NCBI RefSeq assembly: GCF_001592745.1
Contig: NZ_LUKD01000005.1
Span: 310,001 to 374,000 of the forward strand
DNA from: Bdellovibrio bacteriovorus
GTDB taxonomy: Bacteria; Bdellovibrionota; Bdellovibrionia; Bdellovibrionales; Bdellovibrionaceae
Length of the DNA: 64,000 nucleotides
Direction of reading: 5' to 3'
Part shown: one piece after another, positions 3,041 through 47,610 of the stretch
Layout: every line of letters starts with the position of its first letter
Numbering within the stretch: the stretch's first letter is position 1
The notes under the pieces: model-generated
Database searches by the model: none
What the model was told of the DNA's origin: nothing
The model's input: the letters and a program-made list of their open reading frames with translations, nothing else
Made by a program: the position numbers and the translations under genes

Positions 3041-3709
3041 ATGAAAAAACTCATACTACTACCCCTAACATTATTGGCGTTCATCGGTTGTGCTAACTCT
3101 TCAGACGATTCTCCAGGTGGAGAAGTTCTTCAAGGAACAGAGTCTGTGGTTGATGAGGCTTCCGCTGAAGAAAGAAACATTGTCGACGAAAACATGGCGC
3201 TAATCCGTGATTATGCCGCTCAGTTTTCTATCAACGTGGATTGGAACAAAATCCCTGTTGTCGTATCGAAGACTCACTTGCAACGTGAATCTTCTTCTTG
3301 TGTGAGAGATGCAAACGGTGTTGGAACGAAAATCGTTCTGAACAAGAAGTTCTTCTCTGCACGTGTGTACGACAAAGAGACGGGATATGCTTCGCCACTT
3401 TACAACTTGTTGATTCATGAGATCGGTCACTGTTACATGAACCGCAATCATGAAGAAGCCTTGTTGAAAAAAGCGGGCTATCGTGCACAATTTGTGATCG
3501 ATGGTAAAAACGGCCGTCAGGTTGTTTCTTACCCATCCATCCAAGTGTCTATGATGCAAAATGCTTTCTTCCAAATGCCTAAAGTCTTGATGCCATACTA
3601 TGTAGGTGAAATCTTCGGCGCTTACCGCGCGAAGAGCTTGGAAGATTTGCAACAACGCTACGAGTTTGACATCGTTCGTGCTTCTAACTTCGTTGAAGAA
3701 GCGCAATAA
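3041..3709 (+). CDS. lipoprotein with HExxH motif, putative zinc metalloprotease
   Basis: 222 residues. The N-terminus ends LAFIGC with Cys17 as the likely lipidation site. The sequence LLIHEIGHCYMNRNH at 122-136 contains HEIGH (126-130), the HExxH zinc signature with the catalytic glutamate at 127. A third histidine, H137, is seven residues on, one longer than the metzincin spacing, so this is not a clear metzincin. It lies in the envelope, facing the periplasm or exterior. Substrate unknown. No obvious ribosome binding site precedes the ATG. A terminator follows, so it is a single-gene transcript. Confidence 0.75.
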   Translation: MKKLILLPLTLLAFIGCANSSDDSPGGEVLQGTESVVDEASAEERNIVDENMALIRDYAAQFSINVDWNKIPVVVSKTHLQRESSSCVRDANGVGTKIVLNKKFFSARVYDKETGYASPLYNLLIHEIGHCYMNRNHEEALLKKAGYRAQFVIDGKNGRQVVSYPSIQVSMMQNAFFQMPKVLMPYYVGEIFGAYRAKSLEDLQQRYEFDIVRASNFVEEAQ

Positions 3710-3736
3710 TTCGAACTTACAATTTTAACTTTAGCG

Positions 3737-3766
3737 GCGCGAAGGAAACTTCGCGCTTTTCTTTTT
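3737..3766 (+). terminator. intrinsic terminator after the 3041 gene
   Basis: Stem GCGCGAAG (3737-3744) with CTTCGCGC (3749-3756), loop GGAAA-type of four bases, then a T-rich run to 3766. It overlaps the 3' end of the convergent gene by two bases. Confidence 0.8.
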
Positions 3767-4433
3767 ATAAAGATGCTTGCAGAACTGACTCTTGAGTGAC
3801 AGACGAAGCTCGATAAAGCTGGCGTGGATCTCGAGAGTATTTGCTAAAAAATCTTTCTCGCTCACAAACCATAATGGCTGAAGTTCGTTCGGGGAGCTGG
3901 ATGGTTTCTCTTTGCACAAAACAAGTCGCTTCGGCGTAAGTCAGCACAGCCTTATTGCGAATGTCCGGTTCGCCAATAATATTTTGTGTTCGCGAATCAC
4001 TAAAGATGAGCTTCATAAAAGCGGCTGTCGCCGATGATGTATGACTTCTCCCCAAAAACTCAGGTTCACCGATCAGAAAATGCAGACCCTGGTCAAAGGT
4101 TTCATGTTGAATATGATTTCCAAGAACGTCTTCTGAAATCCAGTATCGCTCCCAATAACTAGCGGGAACCCCATCAATAAGGCCGATATAAAGATGCTGA
4201 TGACTGTCTTCAAGCTCAGTAATCAGCTTTCGCGTCAGATCTTCGCGCGTCTGTCCACGTCCCCACCATTGAGCAACATAAGGTTGTTGCATCCATTTAC
4301 AATAGAGATCGATATCTTTATCAAAAGAGAGAGGACGAAACGCGTAGTAGCTGTTATTTCGATGATTGTAGACTTCGAACTCAGGACCCAACATAGGATC
4401 TAAAGTTTTAAAAGGCCTTTCTGACAGGGGCAA
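3765..4433 (-). CDS. GNAT acyltransferase of the siderophore (IucB/AlcB) type
   Basis: 222 residues from a TTG at 4433; the first ATG is 13 codons downstream. The core resembles the acyltransferase domain of hydroxylysine acetyltransferases used in aerobactin- or rhizobactin-type siderophores: YAFRPLSFDKDIDLYCKWMQQPYVAQWWG near the start, then LYIGLIDGVPASYWERYW, GLHFLIGEPEFLGRS and the C-terminal IIGEPDIRNKAVLTYAEATCF. These proteins transfer an acyl group from acyl-CoA to an N-hydroxylated side chain. No other siderophore gene is next to it, so a different acceptor is possible. Confidence 0.75.
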   Translation of the reverse strand: MPLSERPFKTLDPMLGPEFEVYNHRNNSYYAFRPLSFDKDIDLYCKWMQQPYVAQWWGRGQTREDLTRKLITELEDSHQHLYIGLIDGVPASYWERYWISEDVLGNHIQHETFDQGLHFLIGEPEFLGRSHTSSATAAFMKLIFSDSRTQNIIGEPDIRNKAVLTYAEATCFVQRETIQLPERTSAIMVCERERFFSKYSRDPRQLYRASSVTQESVLQASL

Positions 4434-4536
4434 CCCCCGGTCTGAAATGGCCTTTAAGTGAAAAGGAACTGAGTTTCAAATGAAAGCTTATTGCAAATGG
4501 AATCCGCAGGAACACCAGAGCTAGAACGTTTCCGTC

Positions 4537-29901: not shown

Positions 29902-32427
29902 CTACACTTCCTGTCCGTTACGAGCAACGATTTCTTTCCACTTCGCGATCTGGTTCATCGCATCCAGCGGACTCATCTGCATCAACGGGTATTTTTCCAC
30001 TTCTGCCATCAAACTTTTGATTTCTTCTGGCAAAGTGAAGGTCGTGATCGGATCTATATCCATCGCCGGAACATCACTATGCAATTGATCTAAAAGTGAA
30101 AGCTGACTGGAAGCTTGAACACGTTTTGATTCAATATCACGCAAAAGACCTTTGGCCCTTTTTGTCACAGAGGCAGGAAGTCCCGCTAATTCTGCCACTT
30201 GCACCCCGTAAGATTTTAATGCCGGGCCTTTCACCAAGGTGTGCAGGAAACGGATTTCACCGTTTCGTTCGGCCACCGTCATGTGAGCGTTTGTGATCTG
30301 ACCAAAACTTTGATCTAACGACGTCAGCTCATGGTAGTGAGTCGCAAAGAAAGTAAGGGCTTTTGTTTCACTTAATAAATGTTCAAGAATGGATTGCGCC
30401 AAGCACATGCCATCAAACGTGCTCGTACCACGACCGACTTCATCTAGGATCACCAAAGAATCTTTCGTCGCATTTTTTAGCATCGCGGAAGTTTCCGTCA
30501 TTTCAACCATGAATGTTGAAAGACCTTCCGACAACTGATCACTCGCACCAATACGTGTGAAGATCGCATCAAAGACCGGGATTGAAGCCTCATCTGCCGG
30601 GACGAAAGAACCCATTTGCGCCATAATAGCGATCAAAGCCACTTGTCTCATCAACGTCGACTTACCAGCCATATTCGGGCCCGTTAATAACAGGCAAGAG
30701 TGAGGGCGAAGTTCAATGTCGTTCGCAACGAAGTTCTTTTTCACGGTTTGCTCAACCACCGGGTGACGGCTGGCTCTCAATTTTAAAGAACCATCTGTCG
30801 TGAATTGCGGACGTACGTATTTTTCTTCCAAACTCAACCATGCCAAGCCTGAAACCACGTCGACCTCACTACATTCATGAGCCAGCGTCAGTAAAGCGGG
30901 GCATTGAGCCAGAATCTCTTTTCTCAAGGCTTCGAAGAATTCAAATTCCAAATCTGCGCGCTTCGTATTGGCACTCAGAACTTTTCTTTCTAATTCAACA
31001 AGCTCGTCGGTGCAGTAGCGTTCCGCATTAGTCAAAGTTTGTTTTCTTTGATAGTGCGCTGGCGCCTTGTCTTTGTGTGTATTAGTGATTTCAATATAAT
31101 AACCGAAAACATTGTTGTAGCGGATTTTAAGACTAGAAATACCGGTCTTCTCTTTTTCCTCAGCCTCCATGCGTGCCACCAAAGCTTGCGAATGAGTCGA
31201 AAGTTCAATCAACTCATCAAGCTCTGCAGAAACGCCCTGACGAATCAAATAACCTTGCTTTGTTGCCAAAGGAGGATCTTCAACCAACGTGCGCTCAATC
31301 TTGTAAGCAAGATCGCGCAAAGGTTCAAAGTTCGCCGTTCCCCCGGAAGCATGCACTAGAACTTCAAGCGCGCTGATACCAGCATGAACACTTCCTGCCA
31401 AAGCCAAAAGATCACGACCATTGCATTGAGGTTGAGAGATTTTTCCAAGACGTCTTTCGATATCGCCCATTTGCCCTAGGATTTGACGAACGCGTTTTAA
31501 CTCAAGGACATGGCTGCGCCAGAACTCAACCGAAGTAAGACGCTGTTCAATGGCCTTTGTATCACGCAGTGGAAAACTCAACCACTGACGAAGAAGACGA
31601 CTTCCCGCAGACGTTTGCGTGCGGTTGATCGCATGAAAAAGACTTCCCAGGCCTTCACCTTTGTAAGTCGAAAACACCTCAAGGTGACGAAGAACTGTTC
31701 CAGAAATTTCAAGACGATGCTCAAGATCCCTTTCTACAAACGGTGAAAGTGTCTTGATAGACTCTTCCCCTGACAGCTGCGTGACATAAGAAACCAGCCG
31801 GGCAGCCGACAAAGGCGCGCTGTTTTTTAATAAATCGTGAAGAGCCTCTGCGACATCTTCATGGAAGCTAATAAGTACGCCATCAAGACCTTTCAGCAAG
31901 GCCTCGTCGTCTTTAGAAATCACAATCTCAGCAACGGGAAGAATTTGTAAGAAACGCAAAAGCTCTGTCGTTTTTTGCGACCTAAAGAAAAATGCTTCGC
32001 CCGTTGTTGTATCTAAGAAGCTGATAGACTCATTATCTAAACTCACAAGATAATGAGGCTTTGTTCCGTCCAAAGTATCAGAGTCATAGACCATGCCCGG
32101 AGTCAGAACTCGCGTGACACCTCTTTTGACAATACCCTTTGCCATCTTGGGATCTTCTAGCTGATCACAGATTGCAACCTTGAAGCCGGCCGCTAAAAGT
32201 TTATTTATCGGACCTGCGATAGAATGATGAGGTACGCCACACATCGGAGTTTCATCAGCCGATTTTTTATTTCTTTGCGTAAGAGCGATTCCCAAGACCG
32301 GTGCCGCTTTCACAGCATCATCGAAGAACATCTCAAAGAAGTCCCCCATGCGGAATAGAAGAATTTTATCTTGGTGAACGGACTTGATGTCCCAGAACTG
32401 TTTCATGAGCGGAGTAAGATTTGACAT
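29902..32427 (-). CDS. mutS: DNA mismatch repair protein MutS
   Basis: 841 residues, usual length. Mismatch-recognition motif GDFFEMFFDDA at about 28-38 keeps the Phe-x-Glu. Walker A GPNMAGKST near 620, then ILDEVGRGTSTFDG (Walker B), and the C-terminal helix-turn-helix with KSYGVQVAELAGLP. It binds mismatches, then recruits MutL. Transcribed first in a two-gene unit with glnD. Confidence 0.97.
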   Translation of the reverse strand: MSNLTPLMKQFWDIKSVHQDKILLFRMGDFFEMFFDDAVKAAPVLGIALTQRNKKSADETPMCGVPHHSIAGPINKLLAAGFKVAICDQLEDPKMAKGIVKRGVTRVLTPGMVYDSDTLDGTKPHYLVSLDNESISFLDTTTGEAFFFRSQKTTELLRFLQILPVAEIVISKDDEALLKGLDGVLISFHEDVAEALHDLLKNSAPLSAARLVSYVTQLSGEESIKTLSPFVERDLEHRLEISGTVLRHLEVFSTYKGEGLGSLFHAINRTQTSAGSRLLRQWLSFPLRDTKAIEQRLTSVEFWRSHVLELKRVRQILGQMGDIERRLGKISQPQCNGRDLLALAGSVHAGISALEVLVHASGGTANFEPLRDLAYKIERTLVEDPPLATKQGYLIRQGVSAELDELIELSTHSQALVARMEAEEKEKTGISSLKIRYNNVFGYYIEITNTHKDKAPAHYQRKQTLTNAERYCTDELVELERKVLSANTKRADLEFEFFEALRKEILAQCPALLTLAHECSEVDVVSGLAWLSLEEKYVRPQFTTDGSLKLRASRHPVVEQTVKKNFVANDIELRPHSCLLLTGPNMAGKSTLMRQVALIAIMAQMGSFVPADEASIPVFDAIFTRIGASDQLSEGLSTFMVEMTETSAMLKNATKDSLVILDEVGRGTSTFDGMCLAQSILEHLLSETKALTFFATHYHELTSLDQSFGQITNAHMTVAERNGEIRFLHTLVKGPALKSYGVQVAELAGLPASVTKRAKGLLRDIESKRVQASSQLSLLDQLHSDVPAMDIDPITTFTLPEEIKSLMAEVEKYPLMQMSPLDAMNQIAKWKEIVARNGQEV

Positions 32428-32500: not shown

Positions 32501-32535
32501 TTTAAAAACGAAAACCGCACTCATAAAGAGTGCGG
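32501..32535 (-). terminator. intrinsic terminator of the 37.8-32.5 kb export operon
   Basis: Minus-strand stem CCGCACTC (32535-32528) with GAGTGCGG (32522-32515), loop of five, followed by T-rich TTTTCGTTTTT. It lies 9 bases after the stop of the last gene. Confidence 0.85.
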
Positions 32536-32543
32536 CGCGTTAG

Positions 32544-33803
32544 CTACTTCTCTGGAGTGTTCGTATTCACCCATTTTTCGACGATGGCCCGCATTTTTGA
32601 TGACATCAATCCACTTCGTGGCATGGGGGCATTGGCGTCGTTAATACGCAATAGAATCTTCGCGGCCTTCGATTTTGATTGAGAATAACTGCTTAAGTCC
32701 AAACCACCCTGACTGCTGGCCCCTTGATGGCAGGAAAAACACTGACTTCGGAAGACACCTAAGTTTGCGTCTGTGGAAGTCAACTGGGCAAAAGTGACTT
32801 TCTCTGGAGTCGTATCCACTGGCACCGTGACGTTGGAGCCCGTGCCGCATTTTGCAGAGGCATCGACTTTTTCGATGGAGCTAAACTGCAAAGCAAACTT
32901 ATCCGTGGTTTTGCGAGACGCCGTAACAATCAACTGCGCATTTCCAACCGGCGCGAGATTTAAGGATACATTCGGGCATATAACGGCATCAATCCCACGA
33001 TAGACCGTCGCCGCATCATTCAAGACGTTATTAACGTAAAAGAACAAACCTTTCACTCGATATTTCGCACTTCCGGAAGCAATACCCATCGTCGGATTTT
33101 TAATCGCGTATCCAACTTCAGTGCCCCCGACTTTCGCTACTTGAACTTCCACTGAAATAGTCAAAGGCAGTTTCGCGGCATTAGTTGGCATATCGCCAGC
33201 CGTATTCATGTTCCAAGAAAGTTTGGACCAATATGTTGATTCTGATTTTTTATTTACAATATTTGCGTCGGTCTTATTACCAGTCACGACAGACTTATCT
33301 TCAACATCACTCCCCTTACACTGAGCCCAGGCCGTTACGGCATTTTCCCAATCCGCTTTTAAACTACTAATGGTCCCGTTGTGATGAGCTCCCGTTGAAG
33401 GAGGATTGTGATTGGCACTGATGGCATTTGCGGAAACCGCTAGATAACCTTTGTCGCGGAAAACCTGATAAGACGATAAAGAATTTTTAGAGGCAAAAGC
33501 AGGCGCTTCGTGCTCTCCATTGTGGCAACCTGCGCAGTTGTTCTTTAAAAACACGTAGTAACCCGCGCCGAATTTCGCGTAAAGCTGGTCCTCACAGATA
33601 TCGCCCGTGCTTTGTTCTTCCGAAGTTTCGTCATCGATTAAGGAATCATCTACGGGAAGACTGCTTCCGGAATTAAGTTGCACGGCTTTTGTATCTAATA
33701 CGAAACCTTCTCCTAAGTTCTGACCGCAGTTTTGAAATGCAATCACCAGAAGAAAACTTCCAGATACCATCCCTAAAACTTTAAGAGCTTGTGTTCTTTT
33801 CAT
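32544..33803 (-). CDS. lipoprotein with two CxxCH haem-type motifs
   Basis: 419 residues from the ATG at 33803; an ATG five codons upstream is also possible. Lipid-type signal ending VIAFQNC, Cys26. CAGCH at 90-94 and CFSCH at 355-359 each fit covalent haem c attachment, and PMPRSGLM near the second could supply a Met ligand. A middle beta region resembles a copper-monooxygenase-like C-terminal domain (VEVQVAKVGG, RYRVKGLFFYVNN) but this is uncertain. Last gene of the four-gene operon. Likely periplasmic electron-transfer or structural role. Confidence 0.75.
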   Translation of the reverse strand: MKRTQALKVLGMVSGSFLLVIAFQNCGQNLGEGFVLDTKAVQLNSGSSLPVDDSLIDDETSEEQSTGDICEDQLYAKFGAGYYVFLKNNCAGCHNGEHEAPAFASKNSLSSYQVFRDKGYLAVSANAISANHNPPSTGAHHNGTISSLKADWENAVTAWAQCKGSDVEDKSVVTGNKTDANIVNKKSESTYWSKLSWNMNTAGDMPTNAAKLPLTISVEVQVAKVGGTEVGYAIKNPTMGIASGSAKYRVKGLFFYVNNVLNDAATVYRGIDAVICPNVSLNLAPVGNAQLIVTASRKTTDKFALQFSSIEKVDASAKCGTGSNVTVPVDTTPEKVTFAQLTSTDANLGVFRSQCFSCHQGASSQGGLDLSSYSQSKSKAAKILLRINDANAPMPRSGLMSSKMRAIVEKWVNTNTPEK

Positions 33804-33857
33804 CCCCAAATTCCCCATTCCCCTTACGAACCCGAACTTAAGACGTCGACTTACTTT

Positions 33858-35270
33858 TTAAGCGGCTTTCAGCTTTACGACTTTTTCTACGTCATCATTT
33901 TGCAATGTTGCCGGAGCCAATTGCTTAAAGATTCCAAGCTTTTTATTAAGACTTAAATAATTCGCTAGAACGGCTGCCGCCACATAGTCCGGACGAGAAC
34001 CAACAAGCGTCGTCGTATCGACACTTTGATCCGCAAGATAGTGTCCGATCTGATTTCCCGTAGCGGCTAATTTTCCTTGCGGATGGTAGGCGATAATGAA
34101 CTGCAACGACGAGCTATAATCACTCGACCAAATCGCTGTTGAGGATTCAGACTCTTCAGAGACGCAAGCTCCATCCGTCGTCACCAGAATGAATAAAGAT
34201 TTTTTCATACGGTGAGCAAGTTCAATCATACGCCCGATCTGCTGTCCGGCTGCGAAGTCACGCTGATCAGCCACCGTTCTTAATCCCGGTGCATGATAAT
34301 CGTAACCACCTAAAGTGATGCGACCGTGCGAGACGTTGCCGTTTAAGGCATTAAACACGACACCCGCCGTAATGGCGTTGGCATTGTTTGCCGCCGTCGA
34401 GGCATTGATCCCGTAAACCGCTTGCGCTGAAGCATCCTTACGGGGATCCACACCAGAAGCACCACCGGCTTTGATAATATCACCCGACTTAATTCCCGCT
34501 TCTTGTAAAGCGACTTTGATGCCGTCATCTTTCGCATTTAATTTTGCTACTTGAGCTTGAGTCATTTTACCAATAAAGCCACTCAGTTTTTCTTTTTGAG
34601 GCTTAGATAATAGGCCATTATCCGCTAAGACGCTTGAGTAATTCAAAGCGCCGAACATCGAATCCAAACTAGCAAGCTCAAGTACAGAGTTCGGTGCATT
34701 GAACACCGGTTTGATATTTTCACTGGCAGTTCCTTGATGCACGGTGGGCAGAATTTTTCCGACCAATCCCGCTCTTTCAAGCGGACCTGAAAGATCATAA
34801 AAAGGACGAAGTGCCGACTGACCATTGGTATCATTGGCCGTATTTGTACATAAAGCCACAAGACGAGATCTTCCTAAAGCATCGGAGGAACAGACGTCTT
34901 TAATACCTTTGTGAAGCTGCGAGGAAGAGGCAAAGTCAGCTCCCATGAGTCTTTCCGTTGCAAAACCAGCCTTACCCAATCCCAACTTCGAATAGGACTT
35001 AAGAAGACTGCCGCCGGAATCTTTCACGACAAAGTTTCCATGCAGAGCTGCACCCCCGCTAAGACTTAAAGTCACAAAAGGCATCATCGGTGTTGTTTGC
35101 GCGACCGCTTTTTCAGCCATCGTCAAGATAGAGGTTACCGCACCCGGCACAGCCACGCGTGCGGCAAAAGAAAGCACACCTGCTTCTAAGAGTTCCCGAC
35201 GTGAAAGTCGCAGTCCTGAAGAGGCCTCATTTGGGTTTTCCAGAATTTTTTTAAGTTTATCGTTCTTCAT
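33858..35270 (-). CDS. Tat-exported protein resembling DUF1501
   Basis: 470 residues. N-terminal twin-arginine motif LSRRELLEAGV at about 22-32 followed by a mild hydrophobic stretch. The body resembles DUF1501 (alkaline-phosphatase-superfamily-like): SLSGGAALHGNFV early, LGGYDYHAPG and FILVTTDGACVSEE in the second half, as DUF1501 has GWDTH and a late TEFGR-type segment. DUF1501 proteins often pair with CxxCH proteins. Enzymatic activity unknown. Third gene of the operon. Confidence 0.65.
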   Translation of the reverse strand: MKNDKLKKILENPNEASSGLRLSRRELLEAGVLSFAARVAVPGAVTSILTMAEKAVAQTTPMMPFVTLSLSGGAALHGNFVVKDSGGSLLKSYSKLGLGKAGFATERLMGADFASSSQLHKGIKDVCSSDALGRSRLVALCTNTANDTNGQSALRPFYDLSGPLERAGLVGKILPTVHQGTASENIKPVFNAPNSVLELASLDSMFGALNYSSVLADNGLLSKPQKEKLSGFIGKMTQAQVAKLNAKDDGIKVALQEAGIKSGDIIKAGGASGVDPRKDASAQAVYGINASTAANNANAITAGVVFNALNGNVSHGRITLGGYDYHAPGLRTVADQRDFAAGQQIGRMIELAHRMKKSLFILVTTDGACVSEESESSTAIWSSDYSSSLQFIIAYHPQGKLAATGNQIGHYLADQSVDTTTLVGSRPDYVAAAVLANYLSLNKKLGIFKQLAPATLQNDDVEKVVKLKAA

Positions 35271-35293
35271 AACTCCCCCAATTTCCTCTCGTC

Positions 35294-35959
35294 CTACAAC
35301 AAGTAGGATTCAGGCACCGATAACATTCCTGAACAGATAAAGATCGCAAGCTTGTCTGTTTCTGCTGCGTTCCCCATCGCAATAGAATTCAGAGTGCTGT
35401 AATACTCATCAATCGTTTTTGAAAACAAAGCCAATTCTTCACTCGTCGGTTTACGCATCCAAAAGCGATCCACCATCGTAATATAAGTGTTTAGAGCCCC
35501 TAGCTTTCCGTAAGAGCTCGGGCCCTTAGTGAAATCAATAAATTTAAAAATATCGCGGGTGCCCTTTTTCTCTTTATTCACGGCTTGCTTACAAACCACC
35601 GCTGCAAGGGACGTCATCGCAATAATGGCTGGCGAATTGACCAAAGCAATATCATTCTGCGAAGCCAGTAAATTACGACGATAGTTCACCTCGGCGTTCA
35701 CTTCCGCCTGATTGATCTCATTGGGTTTCAAATCCAATAAAGACATCATAGATTCTAAGGTTTGTTTTGCATCTGTTGGCGCACCGTCGATCGCGCTTTC
35801 TGCTTTTGAGTTTGGAGTGTCTATCGAATGCCCCTCAGGCATTGCGGCTTCCAGGCTGGCAAAGTCCGTTTGCTCCGCACAGTTTTGAAAGGCCATTCCA
35901 ACAAACAAGAAGGAAAAGGTCATACCAATGGATAAAGAGATTTTTTTCTTCAAGTTCAT
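35294..35959 (-). CDS. small lipoprotein, unknown function
   Basis: 221 residues with a signal ending GMAFQNC, Cys27, the same AFQNC ending as the 32544 protein. GAAGGAG precedes the ATG. The mature part is helical. It has two further cysteines (VVCKQAV and FICSGML) and no haem motif. Second gene of the operon; starts one base after the stop of the first gene. Function probably tied to the CxxCH and Tat proteins beside it. Confidence 0.75.
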   Translation of the reverse strand: MNLKKKISLSIGMTFSFLFVGMAFQNCAEQTDFASLEAAMPEGHSIDTPNSKAESAIDGAPTDAKQTLESMMSLLDLKPNEINQAEVNAEVNYRRNLLASQNDIALVNSPAIIAMTSLAAVVCKQAVNKEKKGTRDIFKFIDFTKGPSSYGKLGALNTYITMVDRFWMRKPTSEELALFSKTIDEYYSTLNSIAMGNAAETDKLAIFICSGMLSVPESYLL

Positions 35960-35960
35960 C

Positions 35961-37811
35961 TTAAGGCTCCTTCACGAGACCGCAGCTTGAATCCAAGGCG
36001 ATATCTTGATAAAGGCTTTTAAGGTTGTAGTTCAAGGCTTCGAAACGATCCCCTAAACGCACCAAGGTCGTATATTGAGTCGTATCTAGCTTTTTAAAGC
36101 ACACACTTTCATACACACGTTTTGCCATACACTGACTGAAGCGTCGGGATTCCGAAATCATGCGACCAAAATCCTTCACACCCTGACCACCCGTCTTATT
36201 TGAACCGCGCCAACCGAAGAAAGAAGACTTACTTCCTAATGTGGCATTATTTACGAAGTCATCACTAGTCACGGTGAAACCGTAGGCATAGTTCCCTCTG
36301 TTCATCTTAGTTGCGACTCCGGTCTCTGAATCAAAAACATTGCGCGGGAACAGTCTCAGTTGATCTTTGGCTTGAAGATAAGGCGCCATTAAATTCACGT
36401 TTGCCTGACGCCCGCGATTTACTAGTTTTCCTTGAAGACGCGCAATTTCACTCGCACTGACCTTGCTTGCTGTCAGAACAGCTGTGTAGTAACCGTAAAG
36501 TACGGACATGTCCTTTTTCGAATCCAGATTACACTGAAGGAACTTCTCTTCCTGGACCTGTGCCGTCAAAGCTGTGTTTCCTAGATGAGCCAAGCAAGCT
36601 TTCACATAGTCCACGTGGTATTGCGTATTATTGCGGTTATTACGGAATACATTCAGGTCAGATTGTTTCTTCGCACGATAATCCGCGATCAATTCAACCA
36701 CTGTCTGAGGATCACGAATTGTATTAAGGATTGCATTTAATGTTGTTGCCGCCTGCTCTGGCGTTGAACCACGTGTGATTAAAAAGTTATAGCGAGTCTT
36801 ATAGTAGTCCGACTCTTCCTGATTTTTTTCTAAATCCGGGATCACGACCGTCGTTGCCGGTGTGACGACATTCGTTAAATAGTCCGAATATTTAGTAGCA
36901 ATCTTATTTGAATTAAAGAAATCTCCATGCGTCGTGGAATAAATTCCGGTCGCTGCTGAGTTTGTGAAGTTACCATAATCCATTTTTGCAAAAGCCGGGC
37001 GCATACCATCCATCACGGAGTGACAGCTCTTACAACTAGTTAAATATTTATTGTAGTCTCCCGCTGGGAATCGCTCGACGTCTTTTCCCACATATTGATC
37101 CGAGGCACTTGAATCCGCAGCTTCTGCCATGGAAACACAAAGGAACTGCTTCAACGTGAACTCGACGGCGCGACGGTTGCTTCCGCCCCCTAGATTTCTT
37201 TCCGCGAAAGTGCGCGTTGTTAATACTCCCGCTGGATCCGGATGATTCGCCGCTGTGAGAACAGGCGTGCTTTTTTCTTTTTGCATGTAAGGCGTGTCAT
37301 TCGAAGTGATCACCATTTGTTGGCGTGGTTTAAAAGACAAAACCTTCGTAAGATCCAAGAAGGCCGTCTCAACAGGAGTGAAGTTATTCTGATTATAAAA
37401 GCGCGTGCGAGGATCATCGTCATTTGCGACACCAGAGACATCGTAGTAATAATCCGAAGTCAGCACTTCACGGAAATCACGGTTGTCACGAACCACACCC
37501 ACGATTAGTGCTGAAAAATCGTTAAAACCTACTTTCACCGACTCGTCTTTATTGGAAAGACGTAAAGAAAGATTTTTGATTTGCACATTAAGAAAGTCCG
37601 GAGTTGTCGTGATGTATTTCGCCGCAGCTTTATAATCACCATTTGCGATATGATCCGCGACCACTTTTAGTTCCGCTCGTTTAGAAGAGACCTTAACGCC
37701 TGTCATGCGCTCATAAAGCTTCTTCGCACTTCGCATATCCGCATCTGAAGCAGCAAAAGCGTTTAAAGAAAACGCTGTCACGGCCGCAATGAGAAAATAG
37801 TGACCTTTCAT
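35961..37811 (-). CDS. exported protein with one CxxCH motif, first gene of operon
   Basis: 616 residues. Signal peptide ending NAFAA. The middle holds CKSCH at 260-264, preceded by RRAVEFTLKQFLCVSMAEA and followed by MDGMRPAFAKMDY, in the style of DUF1592/1588-type cytochrome proteins (RRAVE...C...MDP). Other cysteines: LGNTALT-adjacent C, LQCNL, SQCMAK, ESVCFKK, SSCGL. Probably binds one haem c in the periplasm. Operon with three genes that follow without gaps over 40 bases. Confidence 0.75.
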   Translation of the reverse strand: MKGHYFLIAAVTAFSLNAFAASDADMRSAKKLYERMTGVKVSSKRAELKVVADHIANGDYKAAAKYITTTPDFLNVQIKNLSLRLSNKDESVKVGFNDFSALIVGVVRDNRDFREVLTSDYYYDVSGVANDDDPRTRFYNQNNFTPVETAFLDLTKVLSFKPRQQMVITSNDTPYMQKEKSTPVLTAANHPDPAGVLTTRTFAERNLGGGSNRRAVEFTLKQFLCVSMAEAADSSASDQYVGKDVERFPAGDYNKYLTSCKSCHSVMDGMRPAFAKMDYGNFTNSAATGIYSTTHGDFFNSNKIATKYSDYLTNVVTPATTVVIPDLEKNQEESDYYKTRYNFLITRGSTPEQAATTLNAILNTIRDPQTVVELIADYRAKKQSDLNVFRNNRNNTQYHVDYVKACLAHLGNTALTAQVQEEKFLQCNLDSKKDMSVLYGYYTAVLTASKVSASEIARLQGKLVNRGRQANVNLMAPYLQAKDQLRLFPRNVFDSETGVATKMNRGNYAYGFTVTSDDFVNNATLGSKSSFFGWRGSNKTGGQGVKDFGRMISESRRFSQCMAKRVYESVCFKKLDTTQYTTLVRLGDRFEALNYNLKSLYQDIALDSSCGLVKEP

Positions 37812-38094: not shown

Positions 38095-39504
38095 TTAGCT
38101 TAAAGCACTCATCAGTTTGCCATAGATGCCATCAAAACCACCGTTACTCATGATGAGGATAACATCACCTTTTTTAGCACGGGCTTTTAAGGCCGCAACA
38201 ATCTGATCCGCATTATCAAAGTCCGCCGCCGTCACTCCGGATTTTCGCAAATCTTCAACAAGCTCGTGAGAAGAAAAACGATTTTCTTCGTCAATTTTAG
38301 ACTGATCAAAAGCTTTAGCTAACATCACTTCGTGAGAACCTTTGAAAGCCTCTACATAGTCTTTCTGGAAGACCTTACGACGAGAAGTCGCGCTGCGCGG
38401 CTCAAACACCGAAAAGACTTTGCGGTTCGGATATTTCTTTTGAATGCCTTTTACTGTTTCGCGAACCGCCGTCGGATGATGAGCGAAATCTTCGATAACC
38501 AACACTCCACCAGGCTCACCTAAAATTTCCTGACGACGTTTCACACCCTCAAAGGACTCTAAAGCAATCTGAATGCGGTTTTCAGAAAAACCAAGGCACT
38601 TCGACATCGCTACGACAGCGGTCGCATTGAGGATGTTATAATCGCCCGTAATTTGCATCGCATACGGGCCTAAAATTTCACCCTTGTGATGAACTTCAAA
38701 ACCGATGCCTTTTTCATTATGGAAAAGAACTTTCGCACGGAAATCAGCATTTTCGCCAAAGCCATAGGTGAAAGAGTTCTTACACTTTGCAAGTTTACGA
38801 AGCTCCATAACATTTGCATCTTCAGCACAGGCTAAAAGAGTTCCGTTCTCTGGAATCAGCGTCATTAAACGCGCAAACGAGTCTTTCACCGCTTGCAAAT
38901 CTTTGTAGATATCCGCGTGATCAAACTCGACCGACGTTAAAATCACATGCTTAGGCTTGTAGTGGACGAACTTTGGTACTTTATCAAAGAAAGCCGTGTC
39001 ATATTCGTCACCTTCGATAACGAAGAAATTTCCCTCTGGATTTTTAAATGACTGAGAAAAGTTTTTGGGGATTCCGCCAATCAAAAAGCCTGGTTTCACA
39101 CCAGCATTTTCCGCCACCCACGACATCATGGATGTCGTCGTTGTTTTACCGTGCGTCCCCGAGATCACTACACTTTCACGGTCTCCGATAATAAATTCAC
39201 CCATCGCTTTCGGTAAAGATGTGTAGGGAATTTGCAACTTCATCAACTCTTGCGCTTCTTCGTTGCTCGCAGAAATCACATTACCGACAATAACAAAATC
39301 CGGCTTCGGGTGAAGATTTTCAGCCTTATATCCCTTCATAATATTGATGCCGAGGCTTTCTAACTGCGTGGACATCGGAGGATAGGGATTCAAATCACTG
39401 CCAGTGATTTTAAATCCGCGATCTTTCAAAAGACCTGCTAAAGATGCCATCGCCGTTCCGCAGATCCCCATAAGGTGAATGTGGCTGCCTGATTTTAAGT
39501 TCAT
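38095..39504 (-). CDS. mpl: UDP-MurNAc:tripeptide ligase Mpl (peptidoglycan recycling)
   Basis: 469 residues. N-terminal Rossmann fold SHIHLMGICGTAMASLAG, ATP loop SGTHGKTTTTS at about 115-125, GDEYDTAFFDK (Mpl-specific in place of the MurC pattern), and C-terminal SVFEPRSATSRR. Mpl joins recovered L-Ala-gamma-D-Glu-meso-DAP tripeptide directly to UDP-MurNAc in the cytoplasm. It is the last gene of the recycling operon that starts at 44 kb. Confidence 0.92.
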   Translation of the reverse strand: MNLKSGSHIHLMGICGTAMASLAGLLKDRGFKITGSDLNPYPPMSTQLESLGINIMKGYKAENLHPKPDFVIVGNVISASNEEAQELMKLQIPYTSLPKAMGEFIIGDRESVVISGTHGKTTTTSMMSWVAENAGVKPGFLIGGIPKNFSQSFKNPEGNFFVIEGDEYDTAFFDKVPKFVHYKPKHVILTSVEFDHADIYKDLQAVKDSFARLMTLIPENGTLLACAEDANVMELRKLAKCKNSFTYGFGENADFRAKVLFHNEKGIGFEVHHKGEILGPYAMQITGDYNILNATAVVAMSKCLGFSENRIQIALESFEGVKRRQEILGEPGGVLVIEDFAHHPTAVRETVKGIQKKYPNRKVFSVFEPRSATSRRKVFQKDYVEAFKGSHEVMLAKAFDQSKIDEENRFSSHELVEDLRKSGVTAADFDNADQIVAALKARAKKGDVILIMSNGGFDGIYGKLMSALS

Positions 39505-45870: not shown

Positions 45871-47610
45871 ATGAAAAACATCCTTTTTCTTATCTCTTTA
45901 TTTTCCTCCTATTTCAGTCAGGCTCAACTACTCATCGAAGATCCGGTCAGTTTGCGATCCATGGAAGTCCAGGGCGTCAGCTTTTCAGAAGTTTTATTCG
46001 CAACAAAACTTACTAACAACAAGGATCTTTTCGCGCAGACAGAATATAAAACTTTAGTTACCGACCTCGAAACGGATCTTAAAGCTCTTCAGGCCGCAGA
46101 TGTAAACCTCGGACCTTCGATGAAGTACAGTCACCGTCTTTTCGATGTACGCTGGCTTCAATCTTCATCCGCCCGCTTTGAGCTCGTCGGCATCGTAAAC
46201 CGCATGGACCGCGCCATCTTTAATCCTGGAACTTGCGGAGAGCTGCGTTTGATCTACCGCCTTTCTTACGAAAAAAACCAAAACGGCGTTCTGATAAACT
46301 CACGCCTTCCTATGACGGCAAATGCGGTCTTTAAGCTTCCCCTTAAAGACTCCTGCAAAGAAATCGCGAGTCAATGGACCCAGATTAATACGACCACTAT
46401 TTTAGAATGGACGAAAAAATCGCAACTGAAATCCTTAGAACTTAATTTGCAGTCTGTACGCTGGCCTTCAACGGTTCGTGGCGACATGGGAGGACACGCA
46501 GAATATTTTATGCGCGTTTATCACGTCGCCAATAACGGCAAATGGATCCCTGCGCCTTTAGAAAACACACCGGATGTCGACGCTTTAAATACCAATTCGC
46601 AATTAAAACAGGAACTTTTAAGCTGGCTGTTAAGGCCGGAACAAATTCAAGCCCTCGACAAGGGAGTTTTAAATATTCCCGAAAAATTCTTAGCGCGCAA
46701 AGTGAGCTCCTTTGCTCTTCACGGAATGAATCGACTGGCGAATCGGCCTTTTGATTCGGTATTTAAGAAAGAAGATTTTCAGAATATCGACTATAGCAAA
46801 CTGACCCATATCTATGGAGCTTCGTCATTCCGTCGTCGTTTGAATGATATGAGTTGTGCTGGCTGTCACCAAGGCCGCACAATTGCCGGGTTTCATTTTC
46901 TAGGAACCGATCACGCAAAAACTGTATTTGCGAACTCGATTTTTTCTTCGCAGTCTCCCCATATGATTGATGAGATACCACGTCGAAGAAAATATTGGTC
47001 CGCGCTCCTAGAAGGAAAGACAGCCGACCCTTCTCGTCCCTTTTCAGAAAGAGATCCTCTTAAACCCGGCGCCTTAAATGCTCACTGCGGCCTTTCTTCG
47101 GAATACAAGGCTTGGACTTGTGCCGCAGGATTAAAATGCACGGCCGTTGTCGCTCCAGAAAAAAATGTTGAAATTGGAGAATGCCTTCCTGAAACCCCCA
47201 TTGCGGGAAACCCTTGCGAGCCCGGATTGATTTCTCAAACCCGCAACGCCCACAAGGACGGATTAAAACCGCTTGCAAAAACCACTTGTGGTTCTGGGAT
47301 GTTTTGCGAAACCACTCGCGTGGGATTTCCCGGCGGCATGTGTTCCGGTGGATGCGCAGACTTAAAACCTGGAGAAACTTGCGGAGCTATCGCCGTTCTT
47401 GTTGGATTTAATAACTGTCTTGCGAAATCTCGCCCGTTCTCACAGTGCTTGGCAGAGAATACTCGCCCCGGAGCTTTGCAAGCCTGCGACAATCAAACTG
47501 CATGTCGTGCGGACTACATCTGCATGAAGACATCCAGCGGGAAGGGTGCGTGCATTCCGCCGTATTTTCTTTTCCAACTGCGAGTGGATGGTCACCCTTC
47601 GCCGATTTAA
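45871..47610 (+). CDS. exported cysteine-rich protein with one CxxCH motif
   Basis: 579 residues. Signal peptide ending FSQAQ. One CAGCH at 329-333 and many further cysteines in the C-terminal third (GTCGEL, AHCGL, TCAAGLKC, GECLPE, NPCEPG, TTCGSGMFCE, MCSGGCAD, ETCGAI, NCLAK, QCLAEN, ACDNQTACRADYIC), giving a disulfide-rich tail. It may attach haem c. No other cytochrome gene is beside it. Abuts the SNF symporter gene tail to tail. Confidence 0.7.
   Translation: MKNILFLISLFSSYFSQAQLLIEDPVSLRSMEVQGVSFSEVLFATKLTNNKDLFAQTEYKTLVTDLETDLKALQAADVNLGPSMKYSHRLFDVRWLQSSSARFELVGIVNRMDRAIFNPGTCGELRLIYRLSYEKNQNGVLINSRLPMTANAVFKLPLKDSCKEIASQWTQINTTTILEWTKKSQLKSLELNLQSVRWPSTVRGDMGGHAEYFMRVYHVANNGKWIPAPLENTPDVDALNTNSQLKQELLSWLLRPEQIQALDKGVLNIPEKFLARKVSSFALHGMNRLANRPFDSVFKKEDFQNIDYSKLTHIYGASSFRRRLNDMSCAGCHQGRTIAGFHFLGTDHAKTVFANSIFSSQSPHMIDEIPRRRKYWSALLEGKTADPSRPFSERDPLKPGALNAHCGLSSEYKAWTCAAGLKCTAVVAPEKNVEIGECLPETPIAGNPCEPGLISQTRNAHKDGLKPLAKTTCGSGMFCETTRVGFPGGMCSGGCADLKPGETCGAIAVLVGFNNCLAKSRPFSQCLAENTRPGALQACDNQTACRADYICMKTSSGKGACIPPYFLFQLRVDGHPSPI

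Follow-up and report, generated by a model that had tools for sequence, protein, structure and literature searches.

The Bdellovibrio window analyzed here (64,000 nucleotides, positions 310001 to 374000 of contig C5) contains a genuine four-gene operon, P1 to P4, that very probably represents a diverged version of the widespread systems in which DUF1588/DUF1585/DUF1595 cytochrome-like proteins are combined with a Tat-exported partner. ORF calling placed its genes on the minus strand, from window position 37811 to 32544 (Table 1), with gaps of 1 base between P1 and P2 and 23 bases between P2 and P3. The P3/P4 gap has the originally predicted length of 54 bases when counted from the second ATG of P4 (position 33803) and is 39 bases when counted from the first ATG (position 33818). 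Directly past the P4 stop codon, a stem-loop of 9 pairs followed by a T-rich tail corresponds to the shared terminator that had been proposed, and the motifs CKSCH, GGYDYH, TTDGA, CAGCH, and CFSCH were all located in the ORFs. The expectation that the operon encodes envelope proteins was borne out as well: P1 has a Sec-type signal, P3 has a Tat signal (SRRELL followed by a hydrophobic stretch), and P2 and P4 both carry an FQNC lipobox at the end of a hydrophobic start (Cys27 in P2 and Cys31 in P4). The flanking genes, at 38095-39504 and 29902-32427, are those that we take to be mpl and mutS, respectively, having recognized their products without a family search. Among the 65 nonoverlapping ORFs scanned in the window, a CxxCH motif outside the operon occurs in a single one (45871-47610, plus strand), which encodes an exported 579-aa protein with a CAGCH motif and no Pfam match.

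Table 1. Features of the P1-P4 operon (window coordinates)
Feature	Coordinates	Strand	Source
P1, 616-aa exported protein	35961..37811	-	ORF
CKSCH, candidate heme c site of P1, residues 260-264	37020..37034	-	
P2, 221-aa lipoprotein	35294..35959	-	ORF
P3, 470-aa Tat substrate	33858..35270	-	ORF
GGYDYH of P3, residues 321-326	34293..34310	-	
TTDGA of P3, residues 364-368	34167..34181	-	
P4, lipoprotein with two cytochrome c domains	32544..33818	-	ORF
CAGCH of P4, residues 95-99	33522..33536	-	
CFSCH of P4, residues 360-364	32727..32741	-	
Terminator-like stem-loop closing the P1-P4 unit	32514..32536	-	

Homologs of P3 were found in 22 of 40 relatives in the first search, where nearly all loci, barring cut or badly called ones, showed P1-P2-P3-P4 on one strand. 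A search of the phylum with a profile of 18 sequences detected P3 in 156 of 369 genomes of Bdellovibrionota, representing 79 of 182 genera. Another 40 stretches, which come from other genera and families, hold 42 P3 loci, of which 35 have all four genes complete and in order; taken gene by gene, P1 is present upstream at 40 of the 42 loci, P2 at 41, and P4 downstream at 37, and some of the missing genes simply reflect the ends of contigs or stretches. Gene order and motifs are kept in relatives at ~30% identity, and the CxxCH motif of P1 is found in 40 of 40 further copies. Closer to the window, P3 of B. bacteriovorus kdesi is 76% identical to the window protein; when P3 alone was used to scan GTDB contigs, by a method that detects close relatives only, this organism was the only one recovered, and a plasmid search found none. 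In genome G006, the orthologous genes are located at ~2.436 Mb. Such conservation of gene order across loci refutes chance and artifact and makes it likely that P1 to P4 form a single functional unit: the genes turned out to be strongly linked in Bdellovibrionota, not unlinked in relatives. The suggestion of a job in a predator found no such backing. We see no sign of a predator-specific role, since the block occurs across the phylum and is absent from 9 of the 23 other searched members of the genus.

P1 had been described as a signal-peptide protein with a CKSCH motif; both features are present, but the description is incomplete, as the DUF1588-type relation of the operon belongs to this very protein. 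The window copies of P1 and P2 themselves remain below the Pfam cutoffs (P1 scores 12.3 bits against PSD2, with an E value of 0.14 and a cutoff of 25.8, and has no match to PSCyt3), and their family relations rest on homologs and profiles. Among 20 P1 homologs, PSD2 (DUF1585) is matched by 13 (best E value, 9.4e-6) and PSCyt3 (DUF1588) by 5 (best E value, 0.028). In hhalign comparisons, P1 aligned with canonical proteins of the DUF1592-DUF1588-DUF1585 type from the same order (probability of 96%, E value of 2.1e-9) and, at a probability of 97% and an E value of 3.7e-10, with the other types of cassette described below. Residues C260, C263, H264, D268, C571, and C610 are invariant in 53 P1 homologs, C225 and C561 are nearly so, and the canonical proteins have the same layout of a Cys before the CxxCH motif, the motif itself, and a Cys in the C-terminal part. 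By these comparisons, P1 reads as a diverged, remote relative of DUF1588 (PSCyt3) and DUF1585 (PSD2) proteins. P2 can be placed in the same way as a remote relative of DUF1595 (PSD5), which is matched by 2 of 19 P2 homologs and aligns with P2 over the canonical DUF1595 region (probability of 88.5%, E value of 2.7e-6). Since P1 is DUF1588/DUF1585-like and P2 is DUF1595-like, what is one protein in the canonical case appears to be split here over two adjacent genes; DUF1592 and DUF1587 are absent from the Pfam results for P1 and its homologs. The CKSCH motif of P1 sits within a long predicted helix (residues 253 to 274). Neither sequence comparison nor the confident AlphaFold model of P1 (pLDDT of 82) yielded a convincing relative of solved structure (best Foldseek E value, 5; best VIA Z score, 2.8), and this lack of a PDB match is not proof of a new fold. 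A LamG (lectin-like) domain is present on 2 of the 20 homologs. Residues ~285 to 490 form a clade-specific helical insert of ~200 residues that is missing from P1 of more distant relatives.

P3 was originally predicted to be DUF1501-like by its sequence, and here the outcome was negative. Pfam and NCBIfam searches with 18 P3 homologs returned no match to DUF1501 or DUF1552, and hhalign against true DUF1501 and DUF1552 sets aligned the Tat signal region only, or nothing. For DUF1501, this was the result with both shallow and deep alignments of up to 40 homologs, but B3, the Tat protein encoded by a parallel cassette, passed the same test with an E value of 6.5e-7. By profile search, P3 is not a DUF1501 or DUF1552 protein. 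A classical DUF1501 operon is therefore a very unlikely description of the locus, in spite of the Tat export, the resemblance of GGYDYH to the GGxDTH segment of DUF1501, and the fact that this genome also has a parallel cassette that is truly DUF1501-like: none of these offsets the missing profile relation in 18 to 40 P3 homologs, set against the clear match of B3.

Sequence searches found no convincing solved relative of P3. Its AlphaFold model (pLDDT of 70, pTM of 0.74) is matched best by a nucleotide pyrophosphatase (NPP; PDB ID 7mw8), with a Z score of 11.5 and 4.1 Å over 223 residues in VIA-align. Further matches include MCR-1/EptA and choline sulfatase, and all those listed by Foldseek and VIA-align belong to the alkaline phosphatase superfamily, whose fold is thus predicted for residues 56 to 470. 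Pfam presumably puts DUF1501 in the same clan. The twin Arg of the Tat signal is invariant in 40 homologs, as are G322, D324, and H326 of the GGYDYH segment and D366 and G367 of TTDGA in the P3 family. Residues D147, D324, H326, D366, and D384, all invariant or nearly so, are candidates for a metal site. Where an acidic residue normally follows the first strand, P3 has LSGG, and it also lacks the second His found in the DH signature of DUF1501; its catalytic site may therefore have changed or disappeared.

P4, which had been predicted to be a lipoprotein with heme-type motifs, proved to contain two Pfam cytochrome c domains, Cytochrom_C (PF00034; residues 85 to 160) and Cytochrome_CBB3 (PF13442; residues 355 to 403), both above the curated cutoffs. 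Its CAGCH motif is invariant in 19 aligned homologs, and CFSCH is found in 17 of the 19. The genome encodes a system II cytochrome c maturation pair of the ResB/CcsA type (ResB and Cytochrom_C_asm).

The P1-P4 type (cassette A) has a counterpart in the same genome. Cassette B, located within positions 84000 to 98000 of contig C1 (locus L050), consists of a CVMCH protein with DUF1585, the DUF1501-like Tat protein B3, and a lipoprotein. It is framed on one side by a predicted outer membrane protein and a BNR-repeat protein and on the other by a cytochrome (B4), a YceI protein, and two further proteins, XR3 and XR2. B. bacteriovorus kdesi and three close relatives have cassette A at this fixed site, cassette B elsewhere, and no cassette between mpl and mutS. 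The window genome and four others carry A either at mpl-mutS or adjacent to it, and their B occupies the fixed site or adjoins XR2. In the window genome itself, A stands alone between mpl and mutS, away from its XR2 partners. In deeper branches of the genus (five loci), A again adjoins XR2. The fixed site is occupied by A in some genomes and by B in others, and mpl-mutS is the other home of A. As to which way A moved between its two sites, the P3 tree gives no resolution and the P1 tree no more than a weak separation of the two groups. In B. bacteriovorus kdesi, a locus was found where only residues 1 to 408 of mpl and 317 to 835 of mutS lie 65 bases apart; it looks as though the N-terminus of mutS had been removed by a deletion. 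A third cassette type, C, was seen at seven loci and comprises a ~310-aa protein, a DUF1549/DUF1588 protein with two CxxCH motifs, a ~220-aa protein, and a DUF1501 Tat protein.

XR2, whose copy in the window genome is found at positions 3360 to 4523 of locus L050, has a signal peptide and, at its N-terminus, a CxxCH block that hardly varies (YPxFIxxxYxxCxTCHYNxxGxGxxxDYGR). It also has numerous strand-like stretches, each ending in a hydrophobic or aromatic residue, and by sequence it is likely to be an outer membrane barrel; searches of Pfam, NCBIfam, and PDB gave no convincing match. The 40 relatives contain 32 strong XR2 copies, and 22 of these have a cassette within 10 kb (A in 9 cases and B in 13), against an expectation of ~1% per copy, although binomial statistics on this linkage ignore the kinship of the genomes. 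XR2 is also present in 14 of 40 cassette A stretches from other genera, and a YceI-type protein is found at 8 of 40 cassette A loci. YceI proteins bind isoprenoids or quinones; they are found repeatedly near cassette A, as are signal peptidase II and small cytochromes, and FG-GAP lipoproteins are among its neighbors. In one family, a signal peptidase II homolog sits beside A at 11 loci, which fits the two lipoproteins of the cassette. Another protein family recurs next to A at eight loci, and one of its members combines a methyltransferase match with a PqqD-like C-terminal domain.

The strong link in the genomes between XR2 and this type of cassette, together with the heme motifs (one in P1, two in P4, and one at the XR2 N-terminus), would suit an electron conduit. 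In such a conduit, P1, P4, and the trans-encoded XR2 barrel would pass electrons over the outer membrane, for extracellular electron transfer or for electron uptake, and P2 and P3 would be structural. We consider this unlikely. Known conduits are multiheme cytochromes inside a barrel, whereas here there is a single heme motif per domain; no phosphatase-fold protein would be expected in one; and the XR2 barrel is deduced from sequence. With one or two CxxCH motifs per protein and XR2 encoded outside the operon, the locus also falls outside the definition of porin-cytochrome conduits, which combine a multiheme cytochrome and an outer membrane barrel in one operon.

The reading that we prefer is that of a redox module acting on an envelope substrate. 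P3 would be folded in the cytoplasm, possibly with a metal, and exported by Tat to be held in the periplasm by P1 and P2; P2 and P4 would be lipid anchored, and P1 would carry one heme c and P4 two. The substrate of P1 to P3 would lie in the periplasm or at the surface and would most likely be a glycan or a polyprenyl- or lipid-linked molecule, while electrons would pass between P1, P4, and the cytochrome c pool of the cell. We chose a redox-coupled glycan or lipid module because lectin-like domains occur on P1 homologs, related systems have a glycan context, P3 has the predicted fold of a hydrolase/transferase, and a YceI protein is a neighbor. In related systems, PSCyt genes are found near carbohydrate genes and with carbohydrate-binding modules (PMC5615132), and Tat operons of the DUF1501-DUF1800 type occur with chitin synthase (PMC5122149). 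The nature of the substrate and the course of electron flow are the tentative part of this proposal, with chances well short of even; the explanation as a whole, a diverged pairing that works as a redox module on an envelope substrate, has about an even chance of being right. Points against it are the sub-cutoff Pfam scores of the window copies of P1 and P2, the helix around the CKSCH motif, the signature residues that P3 lacks, and the distance between this cassette and the XR2 partners in the window genome.

Alternatively, the operon might encode a machine for assembly or attachment of a surface structure or polymer, with the heme motifs serving structure or assembly and P3 being a catalytically dead phosphatase-fold scaffold. 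P3 does keep the fold while missing typical signature residues, and LamG domains on some P1 proteins, the two lipoproteins, and the neighboring FG-GAP lipoproteins and signal peptidase II would suit such a machine. Still, the CxxCH motifs are invariant in P1 and in the first domain of P4, and the five putative metal-site residues of P3 are conserved beyond what is expected of a dead enzyme, which makes this alternative improbable.

The original prediction was right in kind in relating the operon to DUF1501 and planctomycete-type cytochrome systems; proteins that have DUF1501, DUF1552, DUF1588, DUF1592, or a related domain are common among planctomycetes, verrucomicrobia, and other bacteria. 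Like the pairs of PSCyt3/PSD proteins (DUF1587-DUF1595-DUF1592-DUF1588-DUF1585) and DUF1552 proteins (HXXSHH), the operon has a DUF1588-like CxxCH region followed by a DUF1585-like C-terminus, a DUF1595-like part, and a Tat partner encoded alongside. It differs from them in the division between P1 and P2, with no detectable DUF1592 or DUF1587, in a Tat protein that is not DUF1552 by profile, and in the extra diheme lipoprotein P4. With cassette B and the DUF1501 plus DUF1549/DUF1588 systems of cassette type C it shares the combination of a Tat protein, a CxxCH protein, and a small protein in one operon, and P1 is related by profile to B1 of cassette B, but P3 shows neither a DUF1501 match nor the SEFxR...DH signature. 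Its predicted fold resembles those of NPP, phosphoethanolamine transferases, and choline sulfatase, yet identity is only ~10%, and no complete metal site or nucleophile is recognizable beyond the five candidate metal-site residues. The DUF1800-DUF1501 operons with chitin synthase (PMC5122149) have a Tat-exported partner, too, within a two-gene core; here, there is no chitin synthase and no DUF1800. We found no literature linking DUF1588, DUF1595, or DUF1501 to Bdellovibrio and no usable mention in Bdellovibrio transcriptome and proteome papers. New here are the architecture split over two genes, the Tat protein of no known class, a gene order kept across the phylum, and the cassette exchange at a single site.

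This exchange predicts that cassettes A and B do the same or complementary jobs. It is possible, if rather doubtful, that they are exchangeable cores, A with its unclassified phosphatase-fold Tat protein or B with its DUF1501-like one, that plug into a fixed set of XR2, XR3, YceI, and cytochrome. That such a machine carries out, throughout Bdellovibrionota, one redox-dependent cell surface step undescribed in any bacterium is a conjecture that we hold with the same reserve. According to a survey, the functions of cytochrome-like proteins of this class are wholly unknown (PMC5615132). A compact, low-copy cassette with a fixed gene order and constant partners, in bacteria where gene deletion is routine, makes the role of the whole class testable.
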